A DNA stretch of 64,000 bases from Gammaproteobacteria bacterium. Lineage in GTDB: Bacteria > Pseudomonadota > Gammaproteobacteria > Steroidobacterales > GCA-2729495. This document shows positions 14,896-26,670 of the stretch, piece after piece. The position numbers and the translations under genes were made by a program. Position 1 is the stretch's first letter. Each line of letters starts with the position of its first letter. The notes under the pieces are model-generated. The model did no database searches and had not been told where the DNA came from. It was given only the letters and a program-made list of their open reading frames with translations. The DNA lies in contig CP054183.1 of NCBI GenBank assembly GCA_015709695.1, positions 1,054,001-1,118,000 of the forward strand, written 5' to 3'.

Positions 14896-14911
14896 CTGGC
14901 CACGCTGGCCC

Positions 14912-15967
14912 TCAAATCAACCCCAGCCCCGCCAGCCGCTCGATGTCGCGCAGCTGCGCTTCGCGCAGCGTGGCGGTCTCGGCGGTGATGCCGGCTGCTT
15001 CGAGCTGGCCGGCGGCGTGGAAGGTGACGCTGCGGTAGCTCTCGGCATAGGCCTGGAAGGGCTGGCGGACGAGGACGTTGGTGAGTCCCGGCTGGCGACG
15101 GCGCGCGCGCAGGGCGTGCAGGTCGATTTCGGCGTGGGCGGCGAGGCTGTCACCGCCGCCGGGTGCGGCGGCGAGGATGCGTCCTTCGTAGTCGATGATC
15201 TTGGCCATGCCGGTGGTGGACTGGGCGGGTAGCGGGGTGTTGACCACGCCGGCGGCGTTGGCGGAGACCACGTAGGCGAGGTTCTCGGCGGCCCGCGCCC
15301 GCTTGGCGATGTCCTTGGCGGTGGGCCGTGGGCTGCCCATCTCGCTGGTGGAGTGCACGAGGATCTCGGCGCCGCGCATGGCGTGGCAGCGGGCGATCTC
15401 GGGATAGAGAATCTCCTCGGAGGCGACCGCGGCCAGGCGCCCGATGTCCGTGTCGACCACGGGAAACAGCGCCTGCGGGCCGTAGAGGTCGAGGTAGCGC
15501 TGCAGGACATCGTAGGGTGAGGGCGAATACAGCGAGACGATGCGCCGGTAGCGCAGGATGACGTCGCCGGCCGGGCCGATGATGAAGCAGGCCTGGAAAT
15601 ACAGATCGGGGAAGGCGGGATCGGCCTCGTAGGCATTGCCCGCCAGGTACAGGCCGCCATCCTGGGCAATCCTCCCCAGCGCCTCGTATTCCGCGCCGCC
15701 AGGCACCAGCGCCGCCCGCGCGCGCCAGATGGCGAACCGGCCCGGCGTCGGCGAGCCGGTGAGCGCGTATTCCGGCAGTACCACGAGCCGCACGGCCGAG
15801 CCGCTGGTGTGGGCGACGAGCTGCGTGCTGGCAGCGACGGTCCGGGCCAGGCGCGCGATGTGCTCCCGCAGCTGCCGCCGGGTGTCGTCGCCGCTGGCGA
15901 GATGCCCCACGGAGTGCGTGGTCACCTGCAGCGCCAGCGCGCTGTAGCGTATGGATTGCCGGTTCAT
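14912..15967 (-). CDS. nitrilase-superfamily protein with two altered catalytic residues (probable pseudoenzyme)
   Basis: 351 residues with the alpha-beta-beta-alpha nitrilase fold signature throughout. The catalytic Glu is present (VVLPEYALTG, E66). The catalytic Lys position reads Arg (LRYRRIVSLY, R142), and the nucleophile Cys position reads Ser (VASEEILYPE, S183, where the family has ICYDxxFPE). The rest of the fold motifs, including the GAEILVHST region after the nucleophile and the RAAENLAYVVSANAAG segment, are well kept, so the gene is under selection rather than decayed. It may be a binding or regulatory protein. Its ATG overlaps the stop of a short upstream reading frame (TGATG) whose end is identical to that of the cyclase-like gene 3.2 kb away. 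Confidence 0.85.
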   Translation of the reverse strand: MNRQSIRYSALALQVTTHSVGHLASGDDTRRQLREHIARLARTVAASTQLVAHTSGSAVRLVVLPEYALTGSPTPGRFAIWRARAALVPGGAEYEALGRIAQDGGLYLAGNAYEADPAFPDLYFQACFIIGPAGDVILRYRRIVSLYSPSPYDVLQRYLDLYGPQALFPVVDTDIGRLAAVASEEILYPEIARCHAMRGAEILVHSTSEMGSPRPTAKDIAKRARAAENLAYVVSANAAGVVNTPLPAQSTTGMAKIIDYEGRILAAAPGGGDSLAAHAEIDLHALRARRRQPGLTNVLVRQPFQAYAESYRSVTFHAAGQLEAAGITAETATLREAQLRDIERLAGLGLI

Positions 15968-15994
15968 CAGTGCGTGGTGGCCGGGCGGACGATG
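15964..15994. repeat. direct repeat copy A (31 bp, one mismatch to copy B)
   Basis: Bases 15964-15994 match 19161-19191 at 30 of 31 positions, in the same orientation. Both copies encode, on the minus strand, the peptide end IVRPATTH and its stop; the mismatch is synonymous. Identity stops abruptly on both sides. The two copies bound a roughly 3.2-kb segment containing the acyl-CoA ligase remnant, the RHS fragment and an orphan gene. Confidence 0.85.
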
Positions 15995-16035
15995 TTGGCC
16001 GCAGCGTCGTCGCGTATAGGACGTTCAAAGCCCAT
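15967..16035 (-). CDS. 22-codon reading frame ending in the duplicated cyclase tail, coupled to the nitrilase-like gene
   Basis: An ATG at 16035 opens 22 codons (MGFERPIRDDAAAN then IVRPATTH) whose TGA overlaps the nitrilase-like ATG as TGATG. A TACACT -10-like hexamer (16044-16049) lies only 8 nt before the ATG, as in leaderless transcripts, but no good -35 is seen. The second half is the duplicated C-terminal tail of the cyclase-like gene. It may be a fusion of new upstream sequence to a leftover tail rather than a selected gene. Confidence 0.3.
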   Translation of the reverse strand: MGFERPIRDDAAANIVRPATTH

Positions 16036-16190
16036 GCCGCCGGAGTGTAGCCGACCGGCGCGCAGCCGGCGACCTGCGGTAGCGGTGATCGAGTGACGCA
16101 GCAGCCGGTTGCCAGTGAGCTTCCGCGACCGGACGTTCCGGCATTTCGCCTGGCAGCCTGGTTTTGCCGGATGTCGGGAACCCAGACGCA

Positions 16191-16630
16191 TCATTGCATG
16201 ACCCGATGCGGGCAGATTCGCTCGGCCGCTCGGGTCGAGCCGGCCAGCAGCCGCTCCGCCAGCGCGTGCCGGTTGACCTTTCCGGCGCTGGCCCTCAGTG
16301 GCTGGGTTTCGCACCAGATGCGTACAGGCAGCTTGTGTTCCGACATGCGGCCGGCGAGTCATGCGCAAAGATCCGCTTCCCGCAATGTGTGTCCGGCCGC
16401 GATGGTGACGGCTGCGGCGATGGCCTGGCCATACACAGGGTCCGGGATCGGGAAGACCACGCAGTCCTCGATCGCCGGATGGCTGAGGATGAGCTGCTCG
16501 ATCTCCTCCGGGTAAACCTTGAGGCGCCCGTTGTTGATGACCTCATCGATCCGTCCGCTGAGATAGAGATAGCCCTGTGCGTCGAGCCAGCCGCGGTCAC
16601 CCACCGACACGAAGTCCGTCGGGCCGATGG
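16191..16630 (-). pseudogene. C-terminal remnant of an AMP-dependent acyl-CoA ligase with an in-frame TGA
   Basis: On the minus strand the sequence encodes the C-terminal subdomain of an adenylate-forming ligase: FVSVGDRGWLD, GYLYLSGRIDEVIN, KVYPEEIEQLILSHPAIED, then after a TGA at 16361-16359 it continues in the same frame with GRMSEHKLPVRIW and SAGKVNRHALAERL, ending at TGA 16193-16191. The GKVNR lysine is the adenylation catalytic Lys of this family. The N-terminal two thirds are missing; homology ends near 16620-16635, exactly where the RHS coding sequence begins on the other strand. It is a truncated, nonsense-mutated relic of a recombination event. Confidence 0.8.
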
Positions 16631-18102
16631 CACGGCGGCCAGACCCGCTCGGCCGCCCCCTGACCCGGACCGAACCCGAGGGCACCAGCACCTGGACCTG
16701 GGGCACCCAGGCGGGGCTGCACGAGATCGGCCAGCTGCGCCAGGTCAGCGGCCCGGACGGCTACGCGGAGGTCTATGATTACGACTCGGCCGGCCGACTG
16801 GCACAGACCACGATCACGGCCGATGGCGGACCCTATGTGCTCAAGCGCGACTACAACGCTGCCGGGATGCCCGACTCGCTGACCTACCCGGCGAGCACGG
16901 GCACGCCGCTGCGGGTGCGCTACGGCTACGACCACGGCCTGCTGAACAAGGTCTCGGACTACGACAACCCGGCCACGGTGTTCTGGCAGCTGAACACCAT
17001 GGATGCCCGCGGCCAGGCGCTCGATGAGACGCTCGGCAGCGCGAGCCCGGGGATCGGCGTGATCAGCAGCCACGATCCGCTGACCGGTCTGCTGGAGAGC
17101 CGCACGGCGAGCGTGGGCAGCGCGGTGCGCCAGGACCTCTCGTTCAGCTGGGATGCCGGCGGCAACCTGAAGACCCGCACCGACCACACCCAGGGCGGGC
17201 TGACCGAGACGTTCTTCTACGATGCGCTGAACCGCCTGTCCTATTCCCAGCGCGCCGGGATGCAGAACCTCGCGCTCGGCTACAACGCCAACGGCAGCAT
17301 CGCGAGCCGGCTGGAGGGCGGGATGAGCTACAGCTACCAGTACAGCAACGCGGCCCACCCGCACGCGGTGAGCGAGGTGCTCCACGACTGCGGCTGCGAC
17401 TGCCTGAGCGATACCTACGCCTACGACGCCAACGGCAACATGACTACCCGCGGAGGTGCTACCGACGGCAGGACCATCAGCTGGAGCAGCTACGACCTGC
17501 CCGTCCTGATTACCCAGGACGGTGTCTCCAGCCAGTTTGCCTCCAGCCAGTTTGCCTATGGGCCCAACCGCAGCCGCTGGAAGCAGGTGGCGGTGTACTC
17601 CGCCAGCACCACGGAGACCACGCTCTACCTCGGCGGGGTGATGGAGAAGGTGACCCGCGGCGCGGTGACCGAGTGGAAGCACTACATCCCGGCAGGGGCG
17701 GGCACGATGGCGCTGCAGGTGCGCAAGAGCGCCGGCAGCCCGGCCAGCGCCACCTACTACGTCACCGGGGATCATCTGGGCTCGGCCACCGCGGTGATGC
17801 AGGCCGACGGCACGCTGCTCAGCCAGCTGAGCTTCGCTGCCTTCGGGACCCGCCGCGGCAGCGCCTGGCAGGACCAGCTGCTGGCGGCGGAGTGGACCAC
17901 CATCACGGCGACCACACGGCGCGGGTTCACCGGGCACGAGCACCACCCGCTCTATTTTCGTCAGGAAGGGCGCCCGGCCCGTGACATTGGAGTACTTCTG
18001 CAATCCGACCGTGTCGGCGGCTTAAGAAAGTCTTCTGCACGAGAGGCCTATCACGCCTCCGTGCAGCGCATAGATCAGACCCTTCTTAGGTTCAGCGACT
18101 AG
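16627..18102 (+). pseudogene. RHS-repeat protein fragment (3' part only, probably non-functional)
   Basis: 491 codons of an RHS/YD-repeat protein lacking its N-terminal secretion and delivery portion. Several YD-type repeats are visible (YDYDSAGRL, YNAAGMPDSL, YDALNRLSY, YNANGSIAS, YDANGNMTT). The core-end segment follows (GDHLGSATAVMQADG, FAAFGTRRG, RGFTGHEH). After GHEH the usual RVYDPxLGRF continuation is replaced by a divergent tail (LYFRQEGRPARDIGVLLQSDRVGG) of 44 residues. The first ATG at 16627 lies at the junction with the acyl-CoA ligase relic, so the 5' part was lost. Full-length RHS proteins are polymorphic-toxin or adhesion scaffolds; this piece has no signal or delivery domain. 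Confidence 0.75.
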
Positions 18103-18105
18103 GAC

Positions 18106-19095
18106 ATGTGTTTTCCAAAGTTGCTCGCGTACCCAATAAGGGCCAATGGCCCTGCCGGAGCATTGCTTCTTTTTGCCTTATGGTCGCTCCCGGTTACTGC
18201 CACTGGGGAAAGTATGCACAGTAGCATCTTGCCGCGCGGGACCCTCATTTATACGACAAACAATGAGGGGGTCATCGAATTCGATCTGGAATCACGAACA
18301 AGTGTCCGATTGATCGAGTGGTCCGCGTCGGCGTATGCGCCGTACGGGTCGCTGGCAGTGGTTGACGAGAGGAGACTGTTGGTGGATACCAGCAGAATGG
18401 GCCCACCATCGAGAATTGTGGTGATTGATCGGGACACTTCAGCCGCGTATGACCGTCATGCGGGCTACCACCCGACGTTTCTGGCTGGTTCCGACAGCTA
18501 TGTTTTTTTTCGTACCTCCACCGAAACAGGCCCTCGCCTGTTCCTGGCGGATCTGATTGATGACCACGATGTTCAGGAGGTAGTGCCCGCATTGGGTCGT
18601 CTTCCCTCGTATAACAATGTGGTTCAGGTCGGCCTTCATCAGATCGTGCTCCAGGCAGGCAGTGGGGTGGGGCAAGCAATAGCTCCCTGGCTGGTCAATC
18701 TAGCGACAAATCAAGCCGCCCGGCTGCCGTTTGCACGACGATGCACCCCATACGCATGGCGGACAATAACGCACCAACTTCTGTGTGGCATAGATGGAAC
18801 GGACGAGCACTATTTTGTCGGCCTCGATGGCAGAGATTATCAGGAGCTGAAACTGCCGCCGCATGCATCACCCCTTGTCTACATTGAGGAGTACAACGCT
18901 TTGCTTGTGCAACTGACACGCGGCGCGTGGTGGCGTGGCTTCCCGGTGGAGACTTGGCACGTCGCAGCGGTGTCTCTGACGGATGGGAGGCAAGAGATTC
19001 TGATTCGGGATGAGCCACTGACTCGAGGACAGATTGTCTGGATTCCTCAAGGTCGCATCTCGAACGGGAAAGCAGGCAATACCAGTGCCCACTGA
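18106..19095 (+). CDS. secreted protein of unknown function following the RHS fragment
   Basis: 329 residues starting 3 bp after the RHS stop. The N-terminus has a signal-peptide-like hydrophobic run (ALLLFALWSLPVTATG, about residues 18-34). The remainder alternates short beta-strand-like stretches with acidic turns (LIYTTNNEGVIEFDLESRT, RIVVIDRDTS, LFLADLIDDHD, HYFVGLDGRDYQEL), suggesting a beta-propeller-like or beta-rich periplasmic fold. Base composition is clearly less GC-rich than its neighbours, with A/T-ending codons, which fits horizontal acquisition along with the RHS piece. I recognise no family. A role as an RHS-linked immunity or accessory protein is only a contextual guess. Confidence 0.7.
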   Translation: MCFPKLLAYPIRANGPAGALLLFALWSLPVTATGESMHSSILPRGTLIYTTNNEGVIEFDLESRTSVRLIEWSASAYAPYGSLAVVDERRLLVDTSRMGPPSRIVVIDRDTSAAYDRHAGYHPTFLAGSDSYVFFRTSTETGPRLFLADLIDDHDVQEVVPALGRLPSYNNVVQVGLHQIVLQAGSGVGQAIAPWLVNLATNQAARLPFARRCTPYAWRTITHQLLCGIDGTDEHYFVGLDGRDYQELKLPPHASPLVYIEEYNALLVQLTRGAWWRGFPVETWHVAAVSLTDGRQEILIRDEPLTRGQIVWIPQGRISNGKAGNTSAH

Positions 19096-19160
19096 TGTAT
19101 TGCATGCGTAAGTGACGCCGCCCCCGCCCCGGACACAGCTGATACTGGACTCTCCCTTGA

Positions 19161-19191
19161 TCATCAGTGCGTGGTGGCCGGACGGACGATG
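19161..19191. repeat. direct repeat copy B (31 bp), at the 3' end of the cyclase-like gene
   Basis: This is the partner of copy A at 15964-15994 (30 of 31 identical, same orientation). Here it is the genuine 3' end of the cyclase-like coding sequence, whose TGATGA end resembles the TGATG coupling now found at the nitrilase-like gene. Confidence 0.85.
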
Positions 19192-20483
19192 TGGCCGGCC
19201 GTGGCCAGCGCCCCCTGGTCGCCCTGCAGGTAGCGGTCCTCGATGCCGAGCAGGATGGGCTCGGCGGCCCGCCGGTAGATGTTCACCTTGGCGTTGAACA
19301 CGCGGTGCGTGAGGCCGTGCTTGTCGCTGATGGCGAGGCGGCGGATGGTGAAGGTGCCGTCGGCCCGGGCGCGGCCGGTGAGGTAGCACTTGATGGACTC
19401 GATCGCCTCGCCGGCCAGCTCCAGGCCGTTGAGGCGCGAGAGGTTGCCCTGGGCGCGGTCCATGAACTGCACCGCATCGAGGTCGAAGGTGCGGCCGGCC
19501 GCGGCGTCGTCGTCCGGCAGGCTGGCATGGAAGTCGCCGACCAGGATCTGCCCCGGCAGCGCGCGCTCGATCATGCGCGCCAGCTCGATGGTGACGTCGC
19601 CGACGATCTGCGTGGTCAGCGTCGGGTTCAGGCCCTCGGCATGGTGGAACTCGTAGCAGCTGCCGGCATGGAAGCAGGCGCGCAGCAGCGGCACGGAGCG
19701 GCCGACGGCCTTGCGCCGGGCGATGGCGTTGTCGGCCAGCACCAGGTGCATGAGGTGGTACAGGTTGGTGTTCGCCTCGACGCCGAGGTCGCGGTTCCAG
19801 ATGTAGAAGCCATCACCGGTGCCCGAGCGGGCGAAGTTGACGTTGACGCGGCTGCCGATCATCTTGCTGTGGGCGGAATTCAGCGAGTGCGCCAGGCTGT
19901 TGAGCTGGGTCATCTGCTCGAAGGGCCGCAACAGGCTGAAGCCGACGATGTCGAACAGCGCCACCGCACGGCTCGGCACGAAGCTCACCCCGTAGCGGCG
20001 CACCATGTGGTCGATGAGCTGCGTTTCCCCGTCGCTGCCCGCCAGCGGCTGGCGCAGCGCGAGGTACACCGGCTCGGCATGCAGCAGCCGGGCGGCATTG
20101 CTGATCTGGCGCAGGTCGAAGCGGCGCGGCCCCGACAAGAGCCGCAGCACGAAATCCTGGCGCGCATCCTCCGCGGCAGCGGCGCCACCGCCTGCGCTGG
20201 CGTACTCGGCCACGGCGTAGTGGGGCACCACCAGTGCAAGCACGCCGCTCTCGTACGGGCACCAGGCCAGGATCAGGTTGCGACCGAGGTTCCAGTGCGC
20301 ATGCAGTTGCCGGTCGAGGTCCAGCAGGGTGCTGCGCTGGCGCAAGCCCAGGCTGGCGCCGGCCAGCGTGCCGTCGGCTTCCCGCTCCGCGTCAGCCGAC
20401 ATGCCGTGGCCTCGCAAGATTTCATCCATCCAGTCACTCGTGGGCCCGGCAGGGGTACGGGCCAGGCTTGGCTCCCCGGCCAT
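19164..20483 (-). CDS. class III nucleotidyl cyclase-domain protein
   Basis: 439 residues. The C-terminal half carries a class III (adenylate/guanylate) cyclase catalytic-domain pattern: VALFDIVGFSLL with the first metal Asp (D178), SGTGDGFYIWN with the second metal Asp (D224), then TQIVGDVTIELARMIE, which corresponds to the GxxVNxAARL segment with its Arg (R303). The N-terminal half (about 1-165) is a non-membrane region without a recognised sensor. No transmembrane helix is seen. The purine-selecting residues cannot be assigned by eye, so cAMP versus cGMP is open. The true start may be 20483 (ATG) or a later ATG (20429). It probably once formed a two-gene unit with the nitrilase-like gene, now split by the RHS insert. 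Confidence 0.75.
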   Translation of the reverse strand: MAGEPSLARTPAGPTSDWMDEILRGHGMSADAEREADGTLAGASLGLRQRSTLLDLDRQLHAHWNLGRNLILAWCPYESGVLALVVPHYAVAEYASAGGGAAAAEDARQDFVLRLLSGPRRFDLRQISNAARLLHAEPVYLALRQPLAGSDGETQLIDHMVRRYGVSFVPSRAVALFDIVGFSLLRPFEQMTQLNSLAHSLNSAHSKMIGSRVNVNFARSGTGDGFYIWNRDLGVEANTNLYHLMHLVLADNAIARRKAVGRSVPLLRACFHAGSCYEFHHAEGLNPTLTTQIVGDVTIELARMIERALPGQILVGDFHASLPDDDAAAGRTFDLDAVQFMDRAQGNLSRLNGLELAGEAIESIKCYLTGRARADGTFTIRRLAISDKHGLTHRVFNAKVNIYRRAAEPILLGIEDRYLQGDQGALATAGHIVRPATTH

Positions 20484-20572
20484 GGGGAACTAACATGAGG
20501 CGCGGTAGAACGTACTGCATCCATCGGCGACGGCGCAAGCCGCAGGCCGGCCGCCGGAGCGTCGCAAGGAAC

Positions 20573-22006
20573 ATGAGCAGCATCATCGACTCCGCGGTCG
20601 CCCGCGAACTGCGGGACATCGTCGGGCCAGGTGGCTGCCTCGAGGATCCTGCGGATCTCGATCCCTTCCTGGCCGAGTGGCGCCGCCTGTATCGTGGCGT
20701 GGCCGAGCTGGTGCTGCTGCCGGCCACCACCGAGGAAGCCGCCGCTGTCATCGGCCTCTGCGCCCGCCACGGCATCGGCGTGGTGCCCCAGGGGGGCAAT
20801 ACCGGCCTGGTGGGGGGCGCCGTCGCGCGCTCGACCGTCGGGGCCCCGGAGATCATCCTCTCGGCACGGCGCATGGCCGATATCCGTGACCTGGACCCGG
20901 ACAACTACACCATCACCGCGGAAGCCGGTTGTGTGCTGGCGGCCCTGCAGTCGGCCGCCGCGGAGGCCGACCGTTTCTTCCCGCTGAGCCTCGCCTCCGA
21001 GGGCAGCTGCATGCTCGGCGGCAATCTCTCCACCAACGCCGGGGGCACCAACGTCCTGCGCTATGGCACGGCGCGGGAGCTGGTCCTCGGCCTCGAGGTG
21101 GTGCTGCCCGACGGGCGGGTCTTCGACGGCCTGCGCTCGCTGCGCAAGGACAATGCCGGCTACGACCTCAAGCAGCTGTTCATCGGCGCCGAGGGCACGC
21201 TGGGCTTCATCACCGCGGCCACCTGCATGCTCTACCCGCGTCCGCGCGGCGTGGCGACCGCGGTCGTGGCGCTCGCGGATGCCGCGGCAGCCATCGCCCT
21301 GCACAGCCGTGCGCGCCTGGCGCTCGGCGACGAGCTGATCGCTTTCGAGCTCATGAGCCGCCAGTCGATCGAGTTCGTGCTGGCCAGCCTCGCCTCGGCC
21401 CGCGAGCCGTTCGACAAGCCGGCGCCCTGGACCGTGCTGCTGGAAATTGCTACGGCCCGCGACCAGGCGGGGACCGAGGAGGATCTCGAGGATTTCCTCG
21501 GCGACTGCCTGGAGTCCGGCCTGGTGCTCGACGGCGTGGCGGCGCGCAGCGGCGCCCAGCGCGAGGAATTCTGGGCGCTGCGCCACCACATTTCCGATGC
21601 GCAGAGGGTCGGCGGGGCGAGCATCAAGAACGACGTCTCGGTACCGGTGTCGCGGGTGGCGGAGTTCCTCGGGCAGGCGACGCAGCGCGTGGCCGAGGTG
21701 CTGCCCGGCGTCCGCGTGGTGGCCTTTGGCCACGTCGGCGACGGCAACATCCATTTCAACCTCACGCAGCCGACCGGCATGGAAGCCGCGGCCTTCGTCG
21801 ACCTCTGGGAGACGCTGACGGCCGAGGTCAACCACATCGCCGTCGGGCTCGGCGGCAGCTTCAGCGCGGAACATGGCATCGGCCTGCTCAAGGCGCGCGA
21901 GCTGCGCCGCTTCCGCAGCGGCGTGGAACTGGACCTGATGCGCGCCATCAAGCAGGTGCTCGACCCGGCCGGCATCATGAACCCCGGGAAGATCCTCGGC
22001 GACTGA
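20573..22006 (+). CDS. FAD-linked D-2-hydroxyacid dehydrogenase (GlcD/D2HGDH-type)
   Basis: 477-residue flavoprotein of the PCMH/VAO superfamily. The FAD-binding half shows VVPQGGNTGLVGGAV, LGGNLSTNAGG and GAEGTLGFIT. The C-terminal FAD-oxidase domain has the metal-site motifs FGHVGDGNIHFN and SAEHGIG. Members oxidise D-2-hydroxyglutarate, D-lactate or similar D-2-hydroxy acids and pass electrons to a quinone, cytochrome or ETF. An ETF pair is encoded at about 60.5-62.3 kb but is not adjacent. The ATG at 20573 has an AAGGA ribosome-binding site; longer in-frame upstream sequence overlaps the divergent cyclase gene and is rejected. The exact substrate is undetermined. Confidence 0.88.
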   Translation: MSSIIDSAVARELRDIVGPGGCLEDPADLDPFLAEWRRLYRGVAELVLLPATTEEAAAVIGLCARHGIGVVPQGGNTGLVGGAVARSTVGAPEIILSARRMADIRDLDPDNYTITAEAGCVLAALQSAAAEADRFFPLSLASEGSCMLGGNLSTNAGGTNVLRYGTARELVLGLEVVLPDGRVFDGLRSLRKDNAGYDLKQLFIGAEGTLGFITAATCMLYPRPRGVATAVVALADAAAAIALHSRARLALGDELIAFELMSRQSIEFVLASLASAREPFDKPAPWTVLLEIATARDQAGTEEDLEDFLGDCLESGLVLDGVAARSGAQREEFWALRHHISDAQRVGGASIKNDVSVPVSRVAEFLGQATQRVAEVLPGVRVVAFGHVGDGNIHFNLTQPTGMEAAAFVDLWETLTAEVNHIAVGLGGSFSAEHGIGLLKARELRRFRSGVELDLMRAIKQVLDPAGIMNPGKILGD

Positions 22007-22101
22007 GGGCGCGGCCGGCGCGCCGCGGATGCTAGACTAGGCGGATCCAGCCGCGGGCACCGTGCGTGGCCGCGCCAATCCAGCAGCACCAGGAACCGGA
22101 C

Positions 22102-23802
22102 ATGACGGACAAGGGCTCCAGGCCAGGCGGCGAACGCCGCTATTCCAGCGTGGTCGTCGACGGCATCGCCCAGGCACCCAGCCGGGCCATGCTGCGGGCG
22201 GTGGGCTTCACCGAAGCCGACTTCAGGAAGAGCCAGATCGGCATCGCCTCGACCTGGAGCATGGTCACGCCCTGCAACATGCACATCGACACGCTGGCGC
22301 GCGAGGCGGCGGCCGGTGCGGATGCGGCCGGGGGCAAGGCGGTGGTGTTCAACACCATCACCGTCTCCGACGGCATTTCCATGGGCACCCCCGGCATGCG
22401 CTACTCGCTGGTGTCCCGCGAGGTCATCGCGGATTCCATCGAGACCGTGGTCGGCGCCGAGGGCTTCGATGGCTTCGTCTCCATCGGCGGTTGCGACAAG
22501 AACATGCCCGGCTGCGTCATGGCCATGGCGCGCCTGGACCGGCCGTCGGTCTTCGTCTATGGCGGCACCATCAAGCCGGGCGCCGCGCGCCGCGACATCG
22601 TCTCGGTATTCGAAGCGGTGGGCGCGGTGGCCAGCGGGCGCATCAGCGAGGCGCAGCTGCTGGAGGTGGAGCAGACGGCCATTCCGGGCCCCGGCTCCTG
22701 CGGCGGCATGTACACCGCCAACACCATGGCCTCGGCCATCGAGGCGCTGGGCCTGTCGCTGCCCGACAGCTCGGCCCAGGAGGCCGTGTCCAGCCACAAG
22801 CACAGCGACTGCCGACGCGCCGGCGCGGCAGTGGTCGAGCTGGTCCGCCGCGGCATCCGTCCCTCGGACATCCTCTGCCGGGAGGCCTTCGAGAACGCCA
22901 TCACCCTGGTCATCGCCGTCGGTGGATCCACCAACGCGGTGCTCCACCTGCTCGCCATCGCCCACGAGGCGGGCATCGAGCTCGGCCTCGCGGATTTCAC
23001 CCGCATCGGCGCACGGGTGCCGGTGCTGGCCGACCTGCGGCCCAGCGGCTACTACAGCATGTCGGAGCTGGTGGCCATCGGCGGCATCCAGCCGCTGATG
23101 AAAATGCTGCTCGACGCGCGCCTGCTGCACGGCGACTGCCTGACCGTCACCGGCAAGACCCTCGCCGAGAACCTCGCCGGCGCCGGCAGCTATCCGGCCG
23201 GCCAGAAGATCATTCGTGGTTTCGACCAGCCCATCAAGAAGGACAGCCACCTGGTCGTGCTCCAGGGCAACCTCGCGCCGGACGGTGCGGTCGCCAAGAT
23301 CACCGGCAAGGAGGGCCTGAGCTTCTCCGGCAAGGCGCGGGTGTTCGGTTCCGAGGAACTGGCGCTCGATGCCATCCTCGGTGGCGTCGTCGTCGCCGGC
23401 GATGTGGTCGTCATCCGCTACGAGGGGCCGAAGGGCGGCCCCGGCATGCGCGAAATGCTCAGCCCGACCTCGGCCATCATGGGGCGCGGCCTGGGCGACA
23501 GCGTCGCGCTGATCACCGACGGCCGGTTCTCCGGTGGCAGTCACGGCTTCGTGGTCGGCCACGTGACGCCCGAGGCCGCGGTGGGCGGCCCGATCGCCCT
23601 GGTCCGGGACGGGGATGTCATCACCATCGATGCCGCGGCCCGGGCCATCATCCTGGACGTCACGGAAGCCGAGTTGCAGCGCCGCCGGGCGCAATGGACG
23701 CCACCCGCGGCCACGGCGCGGCCCGGGGTGCTGACCAAGTACGCGCAGCTGGTGAGTTCGGCCTCGCGCGGTGCCGTCACCACGGGCCAGCCGGACCCTT
23801 GA
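22102..23802 (+). CDS. ilvD: dihydroxy-acid dehydratase
   Basis: Iron-sulfur dehydratase of the IlvD/Edd family that makes 2-keto acids for valine and isoleucine (and leucine and pantothenate) synthesis. The 566 residues are typical of the shorter IlvD type. Cluster cysteines lie in MVTPCNMH and [11 protein letters not shown], with a further Cys in [14 protein letters not shown]; the C-terminal [10 protein letters not shown] is the family signature. The ATG at 22102 follows AGGAA; an earlier in-frame start at 22066 lacks a ribosome-binding site. The downstream leader ends in a strong terminator (23952-23985). Together with ilvE and leuBCD in this window it covers most of the branched-chain pathway. 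Confidence 0.96.
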
Positions 23803-23951
23803 CCGGCTGGCCTGCATCCGGTCTACTTGCGCCCCATGTCAGCCACCCCCCGCCAGTCCAGGCTCAAGCGCAAGGCCTCCCGGGCCCCGGCGCCGTGTTG
23901 CGGGGGTGAAGGCGCTTAATCGCAAGGCCCGGAACCAGGCGTTCATCCAGG

Positions 23952-23985
23952 AAGCCCGCAACGGTACGACCGGCGCGGGCTTTTT
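23952..23985 (+). terminator. intrinsic terminator between ilvD and the lysine fusion gene
   Basis: An outer stem AAGCCCGC (23952-23959) pairs with GCGGGCTT (23975-23982), with an inner CGGT/ACCG stem, followed by TTT. It ends 55 bp before the lysC-lysA fusion start. It either ends the ilvD transcript or attenuates the lysine gene. The 237-bp gap holds no other convincing gene; a K/R-containing short frame is visible but not Lys-rich enough to call a leader peptide. Confidence 0.75.
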
Positions 23986-24039
23986 GCATGTGGGCGCAGC
24001 CAATGCCGGTGCAGCCGCATCAACGCAGGAAAACCACCC

Positions 24040-26670
24040 ATGACCACACTGGATGCCGATACCTTTCCCGCCCGGCCCCGCGCAGCCTCGCTGCGCGAGG
24101 CGCCGTGGATCGTGCTCAAGTTCGGCGGCACCAGCGTGTCGACTGCCGGCAACTGGGCCGGCATCCATGACCTGCTGCTGGAGCGGGTGGCGGCGGGCTA
24201 CCGGCCGCTGGTGGTGCATTCGGCGCTGGCCGGCGTCTCCAACCGCATCCAGGACGCCCTGGGCCGTGTCGCCCGCGAGGACGTGCGCGAGCAGCTGGCG
24301 GCGATCGAGGCCGCTCACCTGGCGCTGGCCGCGGAGATGCGCGTGGATGGCAGGGCCCTGGTCGGTGGCCTGCTGCTCGAGCTCGAGCAGCTGTTCGCCG
24401 GCATGCGCCTCACCGGGGAAGTGACGCCACGCCTGCATGCCCGCGCCATGGCCATGGGGGAACTGATGTCGACGACGCTGGGCGCGGCCTACCTGCAGGC
24501 GCGCGGCCTGGCGACCACCTGGCTCGATGCCCGGCAGGTCCTGCAGTCGGTCGATGTGCCGGGCACCAGCGAACGTACCCGCTACGTCAATGCCAGCTGC
24601 GGCTTCGATGCCGATGCGACGCTGCAGGAACGCTGCCGCGAAGCCGACGGGGTGGTGCTGACGCAGGGCTTCATCGCCAGCAATGCGCGTGGCGAGACCG
24701 TGATCCTCGGGCGGGGTGGCTCGGATACCTCCGGCGCCTACTTTGCCGCCAAGCTGGGCGCGGCCGGGCTGGAGATCTGGACCGACGTGCCGGGCATGTT
24801 CAGCGCCAACCCGCGCACCGTGCAGGGTGCGCGGCTGCTGCGCGCCCTGAGCTATGCCGAGGCCCAGGAAATCGCCTCCACGGGTGGCTCGGTGCTGCAC
24901 CCCCGCTGCCTGGCGCCGGTGCGCCACCAGGGCATCCCGCTGCGGGTCAAGGACACCACCCAGCCGGGCCTGCCCGGCACGCTGGTGAGCCGCGATGCCG
25001 GCAGCGATGCGCCGCGCGTCAAGGCCATCTCGGGGCGCACCCGGGTGACGCTGGTGTCCATGGAGACGCTCGGCATGTGGCAGGCGGTGGGCTTCCTCGC
25101 CAGCGCCTTCCGCTGCTTCGCCGATCTCGGCCTGTCCATCGACCTGGTGTCGACCTCCGAGAGCAACGTGACGGTGACCCTGGATCCCGGCGCCAATGCC
25201 ATCGACGCCGCCACGCTCGCCGCGCTGCGCGCCGCGCTGGAGAAGCTCTGCCGGGTGAAGATCATCGAGAACGTGGAGGTCGTCAGCCTCGTTGGCCAGA
25301 AGATCCGCTCCGTGCTCCACCAGATCGGTCCGGCGTTCGATGTATTCCAGGAGTTGCCGATCCACCTCATGAGCCAGGCCGCCAGCGACCTCAACCTCAG
25401 CATCGTCGTGGAGGAGGGCCAGTCGCGCCGCGTCATCCAGGCCCTGCACGAGCTGCTGGTGCAGCCCGCGCGCCAGGACGCCGTGTTCGGGCCGACCTGG
25501 GAGGAGCTGCGGGAAGCTGCCCCGGCGCCGGCATCGCTGCCCGAACCCTGGTGGGCGCGGCGGCGCGCCGAGCTGATCGGCCTCGCCGCCCGGCATTCCT
25601 CGGCCTACGTCTACGACCTCGAATCGGTGCGCGCGGCCATTGCCCGGCTCAAGGCGGTTCCCGCGCTGGGCCGCGTGCTGTTCGCCATGAAGGCCAACAG
25701 CAATCCCGCGGTACTGCGCGAGGTGCATGCGGCCGGCCTCGGCTTCGAGTGCGTGTCACCCGGCGAGATCCGCCGCGTGCTGGAGCTGTTCCCGGACATC
25801 GACCGCGGCCGCATCCTCTTCACGCCCAACTTCGCGCCGCGCGAGGAATACCAGTTCGGCCTCGAGCAGCAGGTTTGGCTGACGCTCGACAACCTGTATC
25901 CGCTGCGCGAGTGGGGCGGCCTGTTCGCCGGACGCGAGGTGTTCCTGCGCATCGACACCGGCCATGGCCACGGCCACCACGAGCACGTGCGCACCGCCGG
26001 CGTGCATTCCAAGTTCGGCATCCCGCTGTTCGAGCTGGCGGAAGCACGCGCCCTGGCCGAGCGCGCCGGCGCGCGCGTCGTCGGCCTGCATGCCCATACC
26101 GGCAGCGGCATCCTCAGCCACGGCAACTGGCAGCAGGTCGCGCGCCTGCTGGCCGCGGCGGCACAGGATTTCCCGCAGCTGCGGTTCCTCGACCTCGGCG
26201 GCGGGCTGGGCGTGCCCGAGAAGCGCGATGGCCGGCGGCTGGACCTGGCGGCGCTCGGCGCCAGCCTCGAGGAGATCCGCGCCGCCTGGCCGGCCTACGA
26301 GCTGTGGCTCGAACCGGGCCGTTACCTCATCGCCGAGGCCGGCGTGCTGGTCACCACGGTGACCCAGACCAAGGGCAAGGGCGAGGTGCAGTACGTCGGC
26401 GTGAGCACCGGGATGAATTCGCTGATCCGGCCGGCCCTGTACGGCGCCTACCACGAGATCGCCAACCTCTCGCGCTGGGGCGAGCCCTCGGCCGAGGTGG
26501 TGAACGTGGTCGGCCCGAACTGCGAGACCGGCGACCGGCTCGGCACGGACCGCCTGCTGCCCCTGTGCCGTGAAGGCGACGTGCTGGCGATCGCCAACGC
26601 CGGCGCCTACGGCCATGTGATGAGCTCGCGCTACAACCTGCGCGAGCCAGCGGTGGAAATCGCCATCTGA
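24040..26670 (+). CDS. bifunctional aspartate kinase / diaminopimelate decarboxylase
   Basis: A natural fusion of the first and last enzymes of the lysine pathway (876 residues). Residues about 15-290 are the aspartokinase (VLKFGGTSVST, GRGGSDTSGAYFA, AEIWTDVPG-like EIWTDVPGMF), and residues about 325-475 are paired ACT regulatory domains (LVSTSESNVTVTLD). Residues about 515-876 are the PLP decarboxylase, with the PLP Lys in FAMKANSN, the phosphate loop in DLGGGLGVPE, and NVVGPNCETGD carrying the catalytic Cys. Such fusions are known in Xanthomonas and some other gammaproteobacteria. The ACT domains imply feedback control, presumably by lysine. The gene overlaps the convergent Ada-like gene by 40 bp at the 3' end. 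Confidence 0.95.
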   Translation: MTTLDADTFPARPRAASLREAPWIVLKFGGTSVSTAGNWAGIHDLLLERVAAGYRPLVVHSALAGVSNRIQDALGRVAREDVREQLAAIEAAHLALAAEMRVDGRALVGGLLLELEQLFAGMRLTGEVTPRLHARAMAMGELMSTTLGAAYLQARGLATTWLDARQVLQSVDVPGTSERTRYVNASCGFDADATLQERCREADGVVLTQGFIASNARGETVILGRGGSDTSGAYFAAKLGAAGLEIWTDVPGMFSANPRTVQGARLLRALSYAEAQEIASTGGSVLHPRCLAPVRHQGIPLRVKDTTQPGLPGTLVSRDAGSDAPRVKAISGRTRVTLVSMETLGMWQAVGFLASAFRCFADLGLSIDLVSTSESNVTVTLDPGANAIDAATLAALRAALEKLCRVKIIENVEVVSLVGQKIRSVLHQIGPAFDVFQELPIHLMSQAASDLNLSIVVEEGQSRRVIQALHELLVQPARQDAVFGPTWEELREAAPAPASLPEPWWARRRAELIGLAARHSSAYVYDLESVRAAIARLKAVPALGRVLFAMKANSNPAVLREVHAAGLGFECVSPGEIRRVLELFPDIDRGRILFTPNFAPREEYQFGLEQQVWLTLDNLYPLREWGGLFAGREVFLRIDTGHGHGHHEHVRTAGVHSKFGIPLFELAEARALAERAGARVVGLHAHTGSGILSHGNWQQVARLLAAAAQDFPQLRFLDLGGGLGVPEKRDGRRLDLAALGASLEEIRAAWPAYELWLEPGRYLIAEAGVLVTTVTQTKGKGEVQYVGVSTGMNSLIRPALYGAYHEIANLSRWGEPSAEVVNVVGPNCETGDRLGTDRLLPLCREGDVLAIANAGAYGHVMSSRYNLREPAVEIAI

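Follow-up and report, generated by a model that had tools for sequence, protein, structure and literature searches.

A direct repeat around an insert

In the 64,000-nucleotide stretch of DNA analysed here (the window; GenBank assembly GCA_015709695.1, contig CP054183.1), part of the 3.1 Mb single-contig genome of a gammaproteobacterium designated G000, a cyclase-like gene and a nitrilase-like gene on the minus strand are held apart by about 3.2 kb of DNA bounded by a 31-bp direct repeat. The cyclase-like gene (19164-20483) has its true 3′ end in copy B of the repeat (19161-19191, minus strand), and copy A (15964-15994, minus strand) is a cyclase tail kept directly before the nitrilase-like gene (14912-15967), the ATG of which overlaps a TGA as TGATG. 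The copies have the same orientation and are identical at 30 of 31 bases, the lone mismatch (CGC/CGT) being synonymous in the cyclase frame. An earlier reading of the sequence, here the original prediction, had described the repeat, its two placements and the silent mismatch in these terms, and all are borne out. The pair, with its one-base shifts, is the sole direct pair matching at 28/31 or better in the 64-kb window, and ten third-order Markov windows yielded none at that level. Gapped extension of the repeat past 31 bases is not significant, with 10% of random stretches scoring equally well.

The empty site in congeners

Nine congeners (G001-G009) were compared, making with G000 a genus set of ten genomes. 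In G002 the cyclase-like and nitrilase-like genes overlap directly at TGATG, with one copy of the repeat at the junction (...CACTGATGG...). The nitrilase side of the window (14909-15995) aligns to 6729-5643 of the G002 locus L112 and the cyclase side (19162-24848) to 5673-1, so that both flanks overlap on L112 5643-5673, exactly 31 bases, with which copies A and B both align; therefore about 3.2 kb has been added with a 31-bp target duplication. Direct target copies around the insert and a single copy in a relative are what marks an insertion with long target duplication. A mosaic segment has thus been added between genes with overlapping stop and start codons, and 31 bases of their junction have been duplicated. 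The original prediction had supposed an adjacent, coupled pair whose junction was duplicated by insertion, and had proposed looking in relatives for such a pair and for an empty site with one copy of the repeat; G002 provides both. Its single copy matches A and B equally (25/31 each), so it does not tell which of them is the older.

The two genes also abut in G004 and G006, where on inspection the start codon is TTG; in G001, G007 and G009 the pair is kept with some 200-290 bases between, and in G003, G005 and G008 what comes after the cyclase-like gene is not the nitrilase-like gene but the block that contains a tRNA-Pro gene. The pair is thus adjacent in six of the nine congeners. In a wider survey, which covered the best 80 among 143 named loci with a fetched flank of up to 6 kb, a same-strand downstream nitrilase gene was present at six loci and lacking at 68, the other six ending within 400 bases; at least five of the six positive loci are the same congeners. 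From these comparisons the pair is old within the genus and not general.

A mosaic of familiar pieces

Read from the nitrilase side, the insert is a mosaic consisting of about 20 bases, the end of an IS91-type element, a thiL tail, a ligase relic, an RHS fragment and an orphan open reading frame (ORF). The thiL tail (16119-16155, plus strand) is 37 bp with 95% identity to the 3′ end of thiL (TIGR01379) elsewhere in the genome (G000:717449-717485). The relic (16235-16647, minus strand) is the C-terminal part of an acyl-CoA/AMP-forming ligase, an ORF at 16359-16706 being matched by AMP-binding_C (Pfam) and acyl-CoA synthetase (NCBIfam) models; homologous pieces occur in G002 (contig C30) and G004 (C38, C27 and C49). 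The RHS core fragment (16642-17944, plus strand; RHS_repeat, PF05593) is cut within GFTGHEH and has no C-terminal tip. It is 82% identical to G002:C30, parts of it are 92-98% identical to G000's own RHS locus near 2780k, and of the seven RHS matches that reach the junction six stop at 17944 and one at 17940.

The orphan ORF (18106-19095, plus strand) would encode 329 amino acids with, by eye, a signal-peptide-like start. It has no match in Pfam at E<=0.001 or in NCBIfam, none in viral contigs and none in plasmids, and across 296 genomes of the order it finds itself and two weak matches (E 2.7e-5 and 3.4e-4); a predicted structure with a mean pLDDT (predicted local distance difference test score) of 42 was not used. 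It lies in DNA of lower guanine-plus-cytosine content, 0.55-0.58 in four 500-base windows starting between 17900 and 18650, against 0.69-0.72 in four flank windows of that size starting at 15400, 15650, 19150 and 19400.

No Pfam transposase or integrase is matched at E<=0.001 in the 14 ORFs in or across the insert, and its ends show no terminal inverted repeats (the best ungapped score is 2, reached by 916 of 1000 random pairs). The right end was considered as the end of a dispersed element and rejected, since it gave only short matches in 40 genomes, the best with E 0.006. The fragments between the repeat copies had been called unrelated. The ligase relic, an ORF with RHS repeats and the low-GC orphan are indeed there, though not unrelated to the genus, as relic, RHS and IS91-type end all recur in congeners. 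Support for the further proposal that the event is not recent is weak: a single mismatch over 31 bases says little about its date, though the broken, mosaic content suggests age.

The IS91-type end and a 22-codon frame

The leftmost recognisable piece (16014-16117, minus strand) is a dispersed repeat of which about 104 bp is left, with a sharp outer boundary facing the nitrilase-like gene and an approximate inner limit. Its terminal motif has 29 matches in seven of the ten genus genomes, against one for a reversed control. Because all of the transposase loci with the motif (3/20: L124, L125 and L132) have it 3′ of the Y2_Tnp gene and on the strand of that gene, the piece is read as the truncated oriIS side of an IS91-type element; L125 has an extra copy 5′ of its Y2_Tnp gene, and no Y2_Tnp was found in G000. 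Two arrangements in G007 involve the same kind of sequence. One (L063 4456-4867) resembles a miniature derivative: it is an imperfect palindrome of about 400 bp (68% over 394 bases) that has the IS91-type motif at one of its ends and a diverged copy of the motif at the opposite end. The other is a 111-bp direct repeat (L122 441-551 and 7100-7210; 86%, 6.7 kb apart) in a region that has IS91-type pieces.

A frame of 22 codons, MGFERPIRDDAAANIVRPATTH* (15967-16035, minus strand), has its ATG in the IS91-type end, runs through copy A in frame with the cyclase tail and has a stop codon overlapping the ATG of the nitrilase-like gene. Elsewhere this ATG is missing from some copies of the end and opens frames of differing length in others, so a coupled leader is no general property of the end. 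Many copies (L077, L079, L080, L087 and others) have TACACT eight or nine bases before the ATG, and the resulting frames start MGFERPI, fused to whatever adjoins outside; a few copies are without the ATG.

A second block and other RHS loci

In G002 a related block is associated with pgpA, the gene after thiL. Contig C30 runs from the pgpA end through a ligase relic into RHS sequence that continues past GFTGHEH, and on the kinase side (C35) RHS debris and another pgpA tail come before the kinase gene. The tail copies, 145 and 120 bp long, are identical at 120/120 aligned bases with one 25-bp gap. The pgpA-kinase junction is continuous in G000, and the duplication is absent there and from G004:C35 and G006. 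Reading across contigs, we infer that the relic and RHS block of G002 is flanked by a duplication of the pgpA tail. The open kinase frame of G002 overlaps pgpA, and an overlap of the genes themselves is unproven, because the kinase family match begins at residue 97-98 of the frame and there are in-frame start codons past the pgpA stop. In the same region, about 945 bases between thiL and pgpA of G002 (C17, L158 2860-3804) are absent from G000. G004:C44, 100% identical to G000 over 682 bases where G004:C35 is 88% identical, was treated as a probable contaminant.

Two further candidates were set aside. An RHS locus of G003 (C92; L058 3651-3706 and 6475-6497) has a 21-23-bp repeat on both sides, twice on one of them; it was rejected as a target duplication because panD was not found next to purU at the remaining purU loci, a BLASTN search with panD having no hit. 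At the RHS loci L160 and L187 of G007 the repeats lie within RHS-like stretches, that of L160 also inside a neighbouring gene, and no flanking duplication was shown.

The origin of the insert

We consider it reasonably probable that the insert arose by illegitimate insertion with target duplication. Incoming or ectopic DNA would have brought the relic and RHS block and the IS91-type end; its joining at a staggered break, or at a template-switch intermediate, would then have been followed by fill-in of the offset. As the duplication spanned TGATG, neither the stop of the cyclase-like gene nor the start of the nitrilase-like gene was lost; an insertion at the overlap without duplication would have broken one of the two genes. 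Exact placement at the overlap then needs no target preference, because the survivors would be those insertions whose duplication covers it. In favour of this origin are the single-copy empty site of G002, with its 31-base overlap of the flanks, and the duplication around the related block there. Illegitimate joining with fill-in is favoured over classical transposition because the duplication lengths seem to differ, the interior is mosaic, and inverted repeats, transposase and integrase are lacking in the searches described above. The lengths are 31 bp in G000, 145/120 bp in G002 (linked across contigs) and none at an RHS block between argS and priA in G000; such differences are expected of illegitimate joining and not of a transposase with a fixed stagger.

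From an expression perspective, the IS91-type end may, purely as a hypothesis from sequence, supply the nitrilase-like gene with a promoter and a 22-codon leader in place of its lost link to the cyclase-like gene. Working outward promoters have been described in ISCR1 oriIS regions (PMC6218425). In a broader proposal, which we regard as doubtful, insertion with long, variable target duplication would be how the RHS toxin blocks of the lineage spread, a route reported for restriction-modification systems; tight or overlapping gene pairs would be among the tolerated sites, since with the tail duplicated neither gene is broken, and the IS91-type end would re-supply transcription and a coupled leader to the cut-off downstream gene.

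Several observations weigh against this account and need to be kept in mind. The roughly 20 bases between copy A and the IS91-type end are without explanation. Ku has no match in any of the ten genus genomes, which makes classical end joining improbable. The link between C17 and C30 of G002, on which the duplication there depends, is an identical 53-base overlap, with no spanning contig. At the argS/priA block of G000 no flanking duplication was found (the two genes adjoin at five of the nine other loci read); empty sites can be read for three RHS sites, and this is the one that lacks a duplication. As to expression, no sigma-70-type consensus promoter was found in 15900-19300, and a shared frame through copy A is expected by chance one time in three.

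Transposon families with long target duplications exist, and a member of one could have made the 31-bp repeat, its transposase having been lost since and the present content being later debris. The precision of the duplication and the single-copy empty site fit well with such an origin; the lack of a terminal inverted repeat and of any transposase match in the insert, the apparently different lengths at different sites and the short matches of the right end do not, and it seems rather unlikely.

We give about the same modest weight to one-ended, rolling-circle transposition of an IS91-type element, with oriIS at 16014-16117, the DNA to the right carried past terIS and the duplication a separate event. 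The outward-facing end is indeed directed towards the nitrilase-like gene, with no recognisable piece to its left, and in G002:C30 the end of pgpA, which follows thiL, adjoins the relic and RHS in matching orientation. IS91-type transposition, though, is not expected to duplicate its target, there are some 20 bases between the end and copy A, and G000 has no Y2_Tnp. Furthermore, the cyclase-like gene is whole on the far side, as it would not be after a one-ended insertion at a single junction.

Islands often use the 3′ ends of genes and leave direct repeats, and the two copies might accordingly be attL and attR of a decayed, integrase-borne island at the end of the cyclase-like gene. With no integrase match in the 14 ORFs, an island at that end in none of the nine congener loci, and both a longer repeat and a target of unrelated sequence for the related G002 block, site-specific integration is very improbable. 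Equally far-fetched is a tandem duplication of the cyclase-nitrilase pair in which debris later took the place of the inner nitrilase gene and of all but a 31-bp tail of the second cyclase gene, for while two tails with one mismatch would also be expected of it, it requires that on one side the break fell precisely at TGATGA, the repeat does not extend significantly, and there is no further cyclase or nitrilase piece among the 20 of 35 direct repeat families listed.

The flanking genes

The cyclase-like gene is 88% identical to its G002 orthologue and has no family match: the name is the label of the original prediction, and neither Pfam at E<=0.001 nor NCBIfam at E<=0.01 matches the protein, for which the PDB offers nothing better than E 0.19. 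The nitrilase-like gene, the downstream partner, is also 88% identical to its G002 orthologue, and its frame is intact and matches CN_hydrolase (PF00795, E 1.1e-25). It now lies 3.2 kb from its former neighbour, with the RHS fragment and the orphan ORF between them on the opposite strand. Against G002 its nonsynonymous (dN) and synonymous (dS) divergences are 0.076 and 0.476 (dN/dS about 0.16), and its dN to G004 is 0.128 compared with 0.148 between G002 and G004; on these figures it is still constrained after the insertion. The protein is seemingly without the usual catalytic cysteine. In alignment with NIT2 (2w1v) the cysteine of ICYD aligns with serine and the RK preceding the strand reads RR.

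In G004 a cupin gene and the nitrilase-like gene are on separate contigs (L061, which is C49, and L113 1-530, which is C111). Beyond the cupin gene, C49 ends in a ligase relic, and at the start of C111 is a fragment that by eye resembles an IS5-type transposase. More than one such event may thus have affected the cupin/nitrilase neighbourhood.

Comparison with known systems

Like RHS polymorphic-toxin loci, the insert has an RHS repeat core and the GFTGHEH junction common to the longer RHS genes of the genus; unlike them, its fragment is without a C-terminal tip or a recognised immunity gene. In having a Y2_Tnp-associated end beside a gene that it could transcribe, it resembles IS91/ISCR-type elements with outward oriIS promoters (PMC6218425), and it differs in that about 104 bp of the end is left, G000 has no transposase, no promoter was found over 15900-19300 and a target duplication is present.

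The closest likeness is to the insertions with long, variable target duplication reported for restriction-modification genes of Helicobacter pylori (Nobusato et al. 2000, as cited in PMC1643837, PMC3154945 and PMC3031569). In the portions of these papers available, restriction-modification cargo is frequent in the cases described and is not stated to be a requirement. As there, a segment lies between long direct copies of its target, a relative has the single-copy empty site, and the length of the duplication would vary if the G002 case, linked across contigs, is counted. The cargo in those cases is restriction-modification genes, in contrast to the RHS fragment, ligase relic, IS91 debris and orphan of the window, and the target here is an overlapping gene pair, unlike in the cases described in those portions. 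Literature tying RHS loci to long target duplication was absent from the matches listed, in which coverage of subscription journals is poor.

The window offers a well-documented example of a known pattern, unusual in its cargo and instructive in its location. It affords a clean view, before and after, of a large insertion passing a stop/start overlap with neither gene destroyed, and a hint that toxin blocks besides restriction-modification systems may use the same route; with two sites in sister species, the idea is testable by a genome-wide count.

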